NCBI RefSeq assembly: GCF_017104565.1
Contig: NZ_JAAGPD010000011.1
Coordinates: forward strand, 124,001-188,000
DNA: 64,000 nt
Origin: Paraburkholderia sp. Tr-20389
GTDB lineage: Bacteria > Pseudomonadota > Gammaproteobacteria > Burkholderiales > Burkholderiaceae
Direction of reading: 5' to 3'
Numbering within the stretch: position 1 is the first letter of the stretch; every line of letters starts with the position of its first letter. The notes beneath the pieces are model-generated. The model did no database searches, was not told the DNA's origin, and saw only the letters and a program-made list of their open reading frames with translations. The position numbers and the translations under genes are program-made. Of this stretch, positions 5,832-52,674 are shown piece after piece.

Positions 5832-6479
5832 GCTGGCATCCGCGTTGTGTTGCTGGTTTGCTGGTGTTGCCCCTGTGCGGGGCGGCACTTACTTTCTTTG
5901 CCGCCGCAAAGAAAGTAAGCAAAGAAAGCGGGCTCACACCGCGAATGCTAGTTCTTGCCTGCGGGCTCCCAACAGTTCTTACGCTCCACGCGGCAACGCG
6001 CTGATTTGCGCTCGTTGCCAGCGTGCTAACTCAAGCATCACCCGCTTCACACTCTCGCGTCACGGGCCGCGTTACCAGACGTTCGCGGCCGCCCAGGTGG
6101 CAAACTGTGTGTAGGCCGTCGCGATCGAAGTGCACCACTCCGGACTGAAAAGCGGGATCGGTGTCGTAGAAGCGCGAACGCATATGGTGCGACAACCTAC
6201 ACACAGTTTGCCACCTGGGCGGCGCAGACGAGTCGCTGCCGCTGGCTGCTTGCGGGTGATTGGAGTGGGTGATGCGCCAGTTCAAGGCGCTGGCAACGGG
6301 CGCAAATCAGCGTGATGCCGTGTGGAGTGCGGGACCCGTTGGGGGCCCGCAGGCAAGAACAAGGGCTGGCGGTGTGAGCCCGCTTTCTTTGCTTACTTTC
6401 TTTGCGGCGGCAAAGAAAGTAAGTGCCGCCCCGCACAGGGGCAACGCCAGCAAACCAGCAACACAACGCGGATGCCAGC
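5832..6479. repeat. large foldback repeat element, copy 1 (A-B orientation)
   Basis: A 648-bp imperfect palindrome filling the gap between two convergent genes. The outer arms 5832-5941 and 6370-6479 are inverted copies with very few mismatches. The inner inverted repeat 6089-6115 / 6196-6222 is a perfect 27-bp match. The 80-bp core 6116-6195 is not palindromic. The segments between outer and inner repeats (5942-6088, arm A; 6223-6369, arm B; 147 bp each) are recognisably related inverted copies that have diverged. Each tip holds two hairpins: GCCCC-TGTGC-GGGGC, and a 14-bp stem CTTACTTTCTTTGC with a 4-nt loop. In this copy the B arm carries an A-type tip. Several short open frames cross it but none looks like a gene. 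Confidence 0.9.
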
Positions 6480-16190: not shown

Positions 16191-16550
16191 GCTGGCATCC
16201 GCGTTTTGCTTCTGGTTTGCTGGCGTTGCCCCTGTGCAGGGCGGCACTCACTTGCGCTTCGCGCTGGCATCCGCGTTTTGCCTTCGTACTTCACGCGTTG
16301 CCCTTGTTCGGGGCGGCACTCACTTGTGCTTCGCGCTGGCATCCGCGTTTTGCCTTCGTACTTCACGCGTTGCCCCTGTTCGGGGCGGCACTCACTTGTG
16401 CTTCGCGCTGGCATCCGCGTTTTGCCTTCGTACTTCACGCGTTGCCCCTGTGCGGTGCGGCACTCACTTGCGCTTCGCGCTGGCATCCGCGTTTTGCCTT
16501 CGTACTTCACGCGTTGCCCCTGTGCGGGGCGGCACCTACTTTTCTTTGCA
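16191..16550. repeat. 72-bp tandem repeat array (five units) at the B tip of element 2
   Basis: The start of each unit, GCTGGCATCCGCG, recurs at 16191, 16263, 16335, 16407 and 16479, an exact 72-bp period. Each unit carries GTTGCCCCTG and GGGGCGGCAC, so it is the outer tip of the large element copied in tandem. The last unit is the tip of element 2 itself. Because 72 is a multiple of three and no unit holds a stop in several frames, long repetitive open frames appear in more than one frame. These are artefacts, not a repeat protein. Confidence 0.93.
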
Positions 16551-17127
16551 GCGGCAAAGAAAAGTAGGCAAAAGAAAGCCGCTCACACCGCCAATCCTTG
16601 TTCCTGCCTGCGGGCCCCCTACGGGTCCCGCACTCCACACGGCAACACATTGTTTTGCGCCCGTTGCCAGCGCCTTGAGCAGGCTCATCACCCACTCCAA
16701 TCACCCGCAGGCAGCCAGCGGCAGCGACTCGTCTGCGCCGCCCAGGTGGCAAACTGTGTGTAGCTTGTCGCGCCATATGCGTTGACGATCCTACGACACC
16801 GATCCGCTTTTCAGTCCGGAGTGGTGCATCTACGTCGAGACGGCCTACACACAGTTTGCCACCTGGGCGGCCGTCGACTCCTGGTAACGCGGTCCGTGAC
16901 GCGGGAATGTGAAGCGGGTGATGCGTGAGTTAGCACGCTGGCAACGCGCGCAAGCAGGCGCGTTGCCGCGCGGAGCGTAAGAACTGTTGGGGGCCCGCAG
17001 GCAACAACTAGCACTGGCGGTGTGAGCCCGCTTTCTTTGCTTACTTTCTTTGCGGCGGCAAAGAAAGTAAGTGCCGCCCCGCACAGGGGCAACGCATGAA
17101 GCAAGACAACATAACGCGGATGCCAGC
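16479..17127. repeat. large foldback repeat element, copy 2 (B-A orientation)
   Basis: A 649-bp copy between convergent murU and the ABC exporter gene. The inner inverted repeats are 16738-16763 and 16845-16870. The B-arm tip hairpin has a 15-bp stem, CCTACTTTTCTTTGC, with a 4-nt loop; the A-arm tip has the 14-bp CTTACTTTCTTTGC stem. The core reads in the opposite direction to copy 1, as expected for the reversed arms. From about 16551 to the end it is almost identical to copy 3. It ends 21 bp from the stop codon of the exporter. Confidence 0.92.
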
Positions 17128-25380: not shown

Positions 25381-26030
25381 GCTGGCATCCGCGCTTTCGT
25401 AGTGGTTGTTCATGCGTTGCCCCTGTGCGGGGCGGCACCTACTTTTCTTTGCAGCGGCAAAGAAAAGTAGGCAAAAGAAAGCCGCTCACACCGCTAGCTT
25501 TTGTACTTGCCTGCGGGCCCCCTACGGGTCCCGCACTCCACACGGCAACACATCGTTTTGCGCCCGTTGCCAGCGCCTTGAGCAGGCTCATCACCCACTC
25601 CAATCACCCGCAGGCAGCCAGCGGCAGCGACTCGTCTGCGCCGCCCAGGTGGCAAACTGTGTGTAGCTTGTCGCGCCATATGCGTTGACGATCCTACGAC
25701 ACCGATCCGCTTTTCAGTCCGGAGTGGTGCATCTACGTCGAGACGGCCTACACACAGTTTGCCACCTGGGCGGCCGTCGACTCCTGGTAACGCGGTCCGT
25801 GACGCGGGAATGTGAAGCGGGTGATGCGTGAGTTAGCACGCTGGCAACGCGCGCAAGCAGGCGCGTTGCCGCGCGGAGCGTAAGAACTGTTGGGGGCCCG
25901 CAGGCAACAACTAGCACTGGCGGTGTGAGCCCGCTTTCTTTGCTTACTTTCTTTGCGGCGGCAAAGAAAGTAAGTGCCGCCCCGCACAGGGGCAACGCAT
26001 GAAGCAAGACAACATAACGCGGATGCCCGC
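25381..26030. repeat. large foldback repeat element, copy 3 (B-A orientation)
   Basis: A 650-bp copy between two genes on the same strand: it begins 78 bp upstream of the enoyl-CoA hydratase start and ends 39 bp from the thiolase stop. The inner inverted repeats are 25641-25666 and 25748-25773. It matches copy 2 nearly base for base over about 580 bp; the main visible difference is a short stretch around 25496-25510. Tip hairpins, core direction and arm order are the same as in copy 2. Confidence 0.92.
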
Positions 26031-47897: not shown

Positions 47898-48547
47898 GCG
47901 GGCATCCGCGCTATGTCTCTGGTTGGCTGGCGTTGCCCCTGTGCGGGGCGGCACTTACTTTCTTTGCCGCCGCAAAGAAAGTAAGCAAAGAAAGCGGGCT
48001 AACCCCGCCAGTGCTAGTGATTGCCTGCGGGCCCCCATCAGTTCTTACGCTCCACGCGGCAACGCGCCATTTCATGCGCGTTGCCAGCGTGCTAACTGGA
48101 TGCATCACCGGCTTCACACACCCGCGTCACGGACCGCGTTACCAGGAGTCGACGGCCGCCCAGGTGGCAAACTGTGTGTAGGCCGTCTCGACGTAGATGC
48201 ACCACTCCGGACTGAAAAGCGGATCGGTGTCGTAGGATCGCCAACGCATATGGTGCGACAAGCTACACACAGTTTGCCGCCTGGGCGGCGCTGACGATTC
48301 GCTGCCGCTGGCTGCCTGCGGGTGATTGGAGTGGGTGATGCGCCGGTTCAAGGCGCTGGCAACGGGCGCAAATCAGCGTGATGCCGAGTGGAGTGCGGGA
48401 CCCGTTGGGGGCCCGCAGGCAGGAAGAAGAATTGGCGGTGTGAGCGGCTTTCTTTTGCCTACTTTTCTTTGCCGCGGCAAAGAAAAGTAGGTGCCGCCCC
48501 GCACAGGGGCAACGCCAGCAAACCAGAAGCAAACCGCGTATGCCAGC
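47898..48547. repeat. large foldback repeat element, copy 4 (A-B orientation)
   Basis: A 650-bp copy and the only one in a divergent intergenic region: FAD oxidase is transcribed to the left and ilvA to the right, 119 bp away. The inner inverted repeats are 48156-48181 and 48263-48288, with one mismatch. The A tip has the CTTACTTTCTTTGC hairpin; the B tip has CCTACTTTTCTTTGC and its complement meeting in a fully palindromic 34-bp stem. The core points the same way relative to arm A as in copies 1-3. Confidence 0.92.
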
Positions 48548-51981: not shown

Positions 51982-52044
51982 GCTGGCATACGCGGTTTGC
52001 TCGCTGGCATACGCGGTTTGCTCGCTGGCATACGCGTGATGTTG
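51982..52044. repeat. 21-bp tandem repeat (three units) at the B tip of element 5
   Basis: GCTGGCATACGCG starts at 51982, 52003 and 52024, an exact 21-bp period; the third unit is the tip of element 5. It is a second case of tip duplication, with a shorter unit than the 72-bp array at element 2. Confidence 0.85.
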
Positions 52045-52674
52045 TCTTGCTTCACGCGTTGCCCCTGTGCGGGGCGGCACCTACTTTTCTTTGCAGCGGC
52101 AAAGAAAAGTAGGCAAAAGAAAGCCGCTAACACCGCCAATCCTTCTTGTTGCCTGCGGGCCCCCGACGGGTCCCGCACTCCACACGGCAACACATCGTGT
52201 TGCGCCCGTTGCCGCCGCCTCGAACAGGCGCATCACCCACTCCAGTCACCCGCAGCCCAGCCATCGGCAGCGAATCGTCTATGCCGCCCAGGTGGCAAAC
52301 TGTGTGTAGGCTGTCGCGATGGAAGTGCACCACTCCGGACTGAAAAGCGGATCGGTGTCGTAGTATCGCCAACGCATACGGCGCGACAAGCTACACACAG
52401 TTTGCCACCTGGGCGGCCGCAAACGTCTGGTAACGCGGTCCGTGACGCGGGTGTGTGAAGCAGGTGATGCATCCGGTTAGCACGCTGGCAACGCGCATGA
52501 AATGGCGCGTTGCCGCGTGGAGCGTAAGAACTGTTGGGGGCCCGCAGGCAACAACTAGCACTGGCGGTGTGAGCCCGCTTTCTTTGCTTGCTTTCTTTGC
52601 GGCGGCAAAGAAAGTAAGTGCCGCCCCGCACAGGGGCAACGCATGAAGCAAGACAACATCACGCGGATGCCAGC
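52024..52674. repeat. large foldback repeat element, copy 5 (B-A arms, inverted core)
   Basis: A 651-bp copy between convergent queF and ridA, ending 10 bp from the ridA stop. The arms are in B-A order like copies 2 and 3, but the core (52310-52390) reads in the + direction as in the A-B copies, so core and arms are out of phase. The inner inverted repeats that bound the flipped core are 52284-52309 and 52391-52416. Confidence 0.92.

Follow-up and report, generated by a model that had tools for sequence, protein, structure and literature searches.

A family of 650-bp palindromic intergenic repeats in Paraburkholderia with triplex-type ends and signs of recombination between copies

The stretch of DNA considered here (the window) comprises 64,000 nucleotides of Paraburkholderia sp. 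Tr-20389 (contig NZ_JAAGPD010000011.1, positions 124,001–188,000), in which five copies of a palindromic element of about 650 bp lie between the genes (Table 1). The element is most likely non-autonomous and similar to the REPINs, which are doublets of repetitive extragenic palindromic (REP) sequences, or to miniature inverted-repeat transposable elements (MITEs), with structured ends. The five copies were first described in a reading of the sequence alone, whose coordinates and near-constant length (648–651 bp) hold, and copies 2–5 align over their full length to copy 1 with 82.6–89.7% identity. The same reading placed one copy in each long gap between genes; the five longest gaps (761–1238 bp) do contain one each, but gaps of 530 and 557 bp do not. 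The genes were called by a simple codon model, and all 10 genes flanking the five copies have a Pfam match on the called strand. The outer arms of copy 1 pair over 198 nt with 90% identity, and its inner inverted repeats (35 nt, 94% identity) are separated by 66 nt. The single-strand fold of this copy reaches −538 kcal/mol (z −41 against shuffles), and that of copy 4 reaches −440 kcal/mol (z −20). Copies 2 and 3 have a best within-genome identity of 97%, and copy 5 is a mosaic, the arms of which match copy 1 in one orientation and the core in the other. No Rfam family matches the window at or above its gathering score.

Table 1. Positions of the element copies, of the parts of copy 1 and of the adjoining tip array within the window.
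Feature	Position	Strand	Remarks
Copy 1	5832..6479	+	648 bp; between convergent genes
Copy 2	16479..17127	-	Strand set by core orientation; between convergent genes
Copy 3	25381..26030	-	Between tandem genes
Copy 4	47898..48547	+	Between divergent genes
Copy 5	52024..52674	core +, arms in opposite sense	Mosaic; between convergent genes
Copy 1, terminal 13-bp inverted repeat GCTGGCATCCGCG	5832..5844	+	Partner 6467-6479
Copy 1, left-end GC-rich hairpin	5869..5883	+	Inward-facing, terminator-like; partner 6428-6442
Copy 1, left triplex-type end hairpin and third stretch	5888..5929	+	Type X
Copy 1, right triplex-type end hairpin with third stretch	6382..6423	+	Type X
Copy 1, inner inverted repeat, left arm	6088..6122	+	Partner 6189-6223
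Copy 1, core between inner repeats	6115..6196	+	About 82 nt
Tip array	16191..16469	+	Four ~72-bp units from the terminal ~63 bp of the element; adjoins copy 2

The five copies belong to a much larger set. A count of the inner repeat over the whole genome of the window (G000; 9.0 Mb, 129 contigs), allowing up to 3 mismatches, gives 121 forward and 121 reverse matches, compared with 2 and 2 for a control; the genome thus holds about 121 copies rather than the five first reported. The detailed reading covered 83 copies, with three more inner-repeat matches that lack a partner excluded. Measured across the inner repeats, 81/83 copies give 113 or 114 nt, and the element measures 645–655 bp in 78 of the 81 copies in which both boundaries were found, the outliers being 480, 576 and 674 bp long. 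These boundaries are sharp, with GCTGGCATCCGCG at one side and its reverse complement at the other. The length of the core varies from 81 to 82 nt, which argues against a conserved reading frame, a coding role for the core being rejected on this length change rather than on a formal coding test.

The arms exist as two standing classes, A and B, which are about 70% identical. One arm of each class is present in 79/82 copies of G000, and in 24/24 and 23/25 copies of two relatives, G020 and G001. Of these, five, four and four copies, respectively, have their core turned with respect to the arms. In Burkholderia sp. Ac-20365 the split is less clean on an axis fitted on G000 (67/78 copies with one of each, 11 with both A, none turned). 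The identity of the arm interiors is not higher within a copy than between copies: 0.688 vs 0.694 in G000 and 0.685 vs 0.685 in Ac-20365. It is lower within the copy in G020 (0.703 vs 0.744) and G001 (0.672 vs 0.696), because each copy carries one A and one B arm. The arms therefore do not co-vary within the copy, and maintenance of the long stem by pairing is not supported. Of the proposal that A and B are diverged inverted copies that fold into a long stem, the two classes and the fold energies stand, but not the upkeep of the stem by pairing. Nor does co-variation of the long arms support the suggestion of a long-hairpin RNA; co-variation is found in the end hairpins instead.

The flanks of the copies bear further repeat shells, which are partly palindromic. 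The shells include CTGCGACGC, GGCGCGGGCT, GCTGGCGAGCGCC and simple T/G- or A/C-rich repeats, and in some copies they form a near-perfect palindrome across the element. One fixed larger element is rejected, as the left and right classes of three of the five shell motifs are not significantly associated (uncorrected p 0.11, 0.63 and 0.80); the remaining two give uncorrected p values of 0.04 and 0.02. Flanks match their own partner above chance (mean score 17.0 vs 13.1; the largest of 2000 permutations was 16.08), with the own partner being the best flank match in just 8/77.

Matches to the element occur in 32/60 relatives. Among the matches listed, those of near-full length are found in G020, G001, G005 and G021, and the others have only the ends in common. 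In Ac-20365 at least 73 matches are present, every match listed in that scan being from this genome. A collection of plasmids contains 16 records with matches (11 Paraburkholderia, 5 Caballeronia), eight of which contain 80% or more of the element at a single location. The end hairpin (up to 2 mismatches) is present in 31/200 genomes and 3/25 genera of the wider family, and across 13 genomes the end motif was counted from 0 to 196 times per strand. Both ends were found in 17 of 20 fetched loci of relatives, 438–652 bp apart, and in 16 of these 17 (all but G005) the arms and centres are of other types; the g34 loci examined follow the same plan. The ends stay while the interior differs between most species. 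The element is a genome-wide family that has same-ended, different-interior relatives in other Paraburkholderia and in Caballeronia. The copies are thus not confined to one locus, nor is the family an insertion sequence that encodes a transposase of its own; these were the two outcomes named in advance as speaking against a family. The proposed non-autonomous mobile family of conserved architecture is supported by the copy number, the constant length and arm order, the relatives in other species and the empty sites described below; its mobility is qualified there as well.

The conserved end of the element extends over about 83 bp and contains an A/T-rich, triplex-type motif, in which a paired stem is accompanied by a third stretch in the same strand; the stems of the Y type end in GTAGG. 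The third stretch is the mirror of a paired stem strand, i.e., in the Hoogsteen register, in 530/538 hairpins. Among the 283 informative hairpins, 275 are of the mirror type and none of the direct type. In four asymmetric variants, the fourth of which comes on top of these counts, the differences affect all three strands at corresponding positions, the mirror position differing along with both strands of the stem. In a second genus, the search for asymmetric hairpins gave one defective match among 23 genomes. The end hairpins change as expected of a three-stranded fold, and an intrastrand triplex is predicted to form from the hairpin and its third stretch, in DNA or RNA. Alternatively, the mirror arrangement may reflect a protein-binding constraint or a historical accident, which is possible, since there are only about four asymmetric variants and each may have a single origin; the joint change of all three strands and the lack of any direct-type copy among the informative hairpins speak against it. 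A wider proposal, in which selection keeps an intrastrand triplex at each end of palindromes found throughout the genus and the triplex or palindrome acts both as an initiator of recombination or conversion and as a two-way terminator, can be put forward only tentatively. The secondary structures of RNA were established by comparative evidence of the same kind as this three-strand co-variation, and the system can be tested with short oligonucleotides. To our knowledge, the case for intramolecular DNA or RNA triplexes in nature has been made mostly by counting motifs. What is novel here is the comparative evidence for a triplex-type end.

Most copies are found on the 3′ side of genes, and none of the 83 is inside a gene, as had been stated for the window. 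Of the 81 copies that could be placed (the other two are at locus edges), 38 are between convergent, 40 between tandem and 3 between divergent genes, and the 149 control gaps longer than 60 bp from the same loci divide into 14, 98 and 37. Convergent sites are thus in excess (38/81 vs 14/149, Fisher p 4e-10) and divergent ones in deficit (3/81 vs 37/149, Fisher p 2e-5), and the median distance of a copy is 83 bp from the 3′ end and 178 bp from the 5′ end of a gene. Relative to tandem genes the core has no clear direction (24 opposite, 16 same). Such a position after gene ends could mean that the elements are selected as bidirectional terminators or 3′-end stabilisers, their repeat nature being secondary. 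Inward-facing GC-rich hairpins are indeed present at both element ends, and ordinary terminator-like hairpins, read by eye, stand at some of the orthologous sites that lack the element (the place of copy 1 in G005 and of copy 3 in G027 and G031). This explanation is nevertheless rather unlikely, as 40 of the 81 copies are between tandem genes, the hairpin tails are poor in T, and the same bias is expected if insertion is harmless only there.

The history of the copies can be followed at the orthologous places of window copies 1–5 (sites 1–5), the coverage of which differs among the relatives. Site 1 carries an element in G020 and G001 and a shorter one (ends 417 bp apart) in G021, and it is empty in G005. 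Site 2 is occupied in G020 and G001 and empty in G005, G021, G027 and G031; site 3 is occupied in the same two genomes and empty in G027 and G031. The copy at site 4 is present in G000, shortened in G020 and missing in G001, G005, G027 and G031. At site 5, element ends are found in all five relatives examined there: G020, G001 and G005 have the element, G031 another interior, and G027 one end. With the exception of site 1 in G021, occupancy follows the gene identity to the window, which is about 92% for G020, 89% for G001, 88% for G005 and 80% for G027 and G031. As occupied and empty sites follow relatedness, the copies must have been inserted and later passed on by descent, and the pattern is as expected of rare insertion followed by long inheritance.

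The mean identity of copies is 0.842 within G000, 0.814 to those of G020 and 0.752 to those of G001, and the flanking genes, about 92% and 89% identical, exceed these last two values. The nearest neighbour is in the own genome for 206/209 copies. Four sites could be compared across three genomes, and at none of them does the orthologue come first among the copies of the compared genome, its rank varying from 5 of 82 to 25 of 25; at sites 2 and 5 some of the compared stretches include insertion-sequence DNA. The core orientation differs at two of the four orthologous sites. Being orthologous adds little or nothing to the similarity of two copies from different genomes, which indicates that the family evolves in concert.

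A closer view is offered by a pair of strains that are 98.5–99.5% identical over most of 350 kb and have five copies each, of which three are collinear and the other two delimit an inversion. The family is mobile, as was proposed, at the scale of species divergence only, the number of copies over these 350 kb being the same in strains of 99% identity, and neither a transposase for the element nor a target duplication having come to light. Two of the collinear copies are identical (0/655 and 0/659 differences), and the third differs at 60/660 positions, with only 0.5–1.5% difference in its flanks. A third strain is 8–9% from both at that copy and shows 24/659 differences at another. For 44 of 61 substitutions (25.0 expected) and 21 of 24 (11.0 expected), both alleles occur in at least two other copies, and no exact donor of the converted copy was found among the copies compared. 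The copies appear to overwrite each other repeatedly. It could be argued instead that the occupied sites are intergenic hot spots hit repeatedly by loss and re-insertion, not old copies altered by conversion, which would fit same-site copies that differ between genomes about as much as unrelated ones, the change of core orientation at two of four sites, and site 1 being filled in G021 and empty in G005. Such a history is improbable, since occupancy otherwise tracks relatedness, a copy at a shared site is 9% different between close strains with flanks of 0.5–1.5%, and its differences follow the alleles of other copies.

Copies serve as ends of a rearrangement and as landing sites of insertion sequences. 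The rearrangement is an inverted block of about 10.6 kb between PGU16 (Paraburkholderia largidicola, NZ_AP023176.1) and 22B1P (records AP023176 and AP028998). In 22B1P both ends of the inversion fall within 60 bp of a copy, and so does the left end in PGU16; the right end in PGU16 lies about 1.5 kb short of the copy, next to about 14 kb with no listed match in the other strain. Across the inversion, crosswise pairing of the copies gives 41/662 and 64/657 differences, compared with 115/660 and 120/658 for same-place pairs. An IS5-family element is inserted in the end hairpin at sites 2 and 5 of G020, an IS30-family element in that at site 2 of G001, and record AP028202 has an annotated IS5-family transposase inside a copy. 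The inserted element at site 2 of G020 appears to be flanked by TAAG. Seven further end pairs among those listed in G020 are spaced by about 1.7 kb, not 0.56 kb, consistent with the same IS5 insertion. The transposases inside the copies of some relatives are later IS5 and IS30 insertions and not the family's own. The inversions and insertion-sequence landings bear on the rearrangement of the large multi-replicon genomes of these bacteria.

Taken as a whole, a non-autonomous, REPIN/MITE-like intergenic repeat shaped by copy-to-copy recombination is the preferred explanation, with a probability of roughly 0.6. The plan would be that of an oversized REPIN or MITE, in which a core and diverged inverted arms are enclosed by a structured end on either side, the two ends being inverted. 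Homogenisation would take place through recombination or ectopic gene conversion among the copies, promoted by ends that are palindromic and triplex-prone and can stall replication. Each end may act as an inward-facing terminator, so that a copy between convergent genes would stop transcription from both sides, and this two-way termination would explain why copies are tolerated there. In its behaviour the element resembles a passenger of the REPIN or MITE kind that now owes its form chiefly to recombination among its copies. Two observations lower the confidence in this explanation: G021 has an element at site 1, and the orthologues at sites 1 and 3, where no foreign sequence is inserted, have a mean rank fraction of 0.36, which may be a weak trace of descent. 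The family is an example from bacteria of non-coding repeats that are dispersed and yet evolve in concert, a process that can be watched between near-identical strains.

No recognised description of the family was found in the literature searched, the coverage of which leaves out most subscription journals, and the available passages of PMC3733652, PMC2267715 and PMC12306157 make no mention of Burkholderia. MITEs are non-coding, have short terminal inverted repeats and many copies, and lack a transposase of their own. The element resembles them in its terminal inverted repeats, its copy number and its apparently non-coding nature, and differs from them in having an interior that varies among most species despite constant ends. 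A parent transposon sharing these ends was not noticed, with no dedicated search made, and no target duplication was found, the flanks being themselves repeats, partly palindromic, and the empty sites too diverged for the junctions to be read. The REPINs, in the available part of Bertels and Rainey 2011 (PMC3116915), are intergenic, present in many copies and predicted to form a single hairpin; their two hairpin ends are conserved and inverted, and the spacer between them is less conserved. The likeness lies in the architecture of two inverted REP-type hairpins around a spacer and in the intergenic, multicopy occurrence; the length of about 650 bp, the two arm classes, the core and the extra mirror stretch are unlike that description. 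Mobilisation as a REPIN by a REP-associated tyrosine transposase (RAYT), which the inverted ends, the high copy number and one Y1_Tnp (RAYT-like) gene in the genome would allow, is very improbable, as the 3.3 kb around this gene contain only short chance matches to the element and the length of the ends does not fit the REPs described in that part of PMC3116915. The link to this single gene, with no element at its flanks, was rejected; the gene downstream of it is presumably that of the glutamate synthase large subunit. Membership in the REPINs or MITEs is not established because neither a cognate RAYT nor a parent transposon nor a target duplication was found.

REPs are given as 20–40 bp long with a GTAG or CGTC tag in PMC3733652, and as targets of insertion sequences, which land in their hairpins, in Tobes and Pareja 2006 (PMC1525189); here the landings of IS5-family and IS30-family elements are likewise in the end hairpin. 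A table for Paraburkholderia terrae (PMC5968390, available in part) gives the terminal sequence CGCGGATGCCAGC as a repeat of clustered regularly interspaced short palindromic repeats (CRISPR), without cas genes, whereas here it is the terminus of a palindromic element. A CRISPR array is rejected for the element, which is inverted and palindromic rather than made of direct repeats with spacers, only the tip array being tandem. This array resembles the tip repeats called CRISPR repeats in P. terrae. A close parallel to the ends is found in the TMECO/BoxC intrastrand triplex motifs (Holder 2015, PMC4666352), the available main text of which makes no mention of Burkholderia. As far as described there, both combine a paired stem with a third stretch of the same strand, are dispersed and are associated with rearrangements; TMECO is G/C-rich, and the present motif is A/T-rich, terminates a 650-bp palindrome and co-varies in three strands between species.
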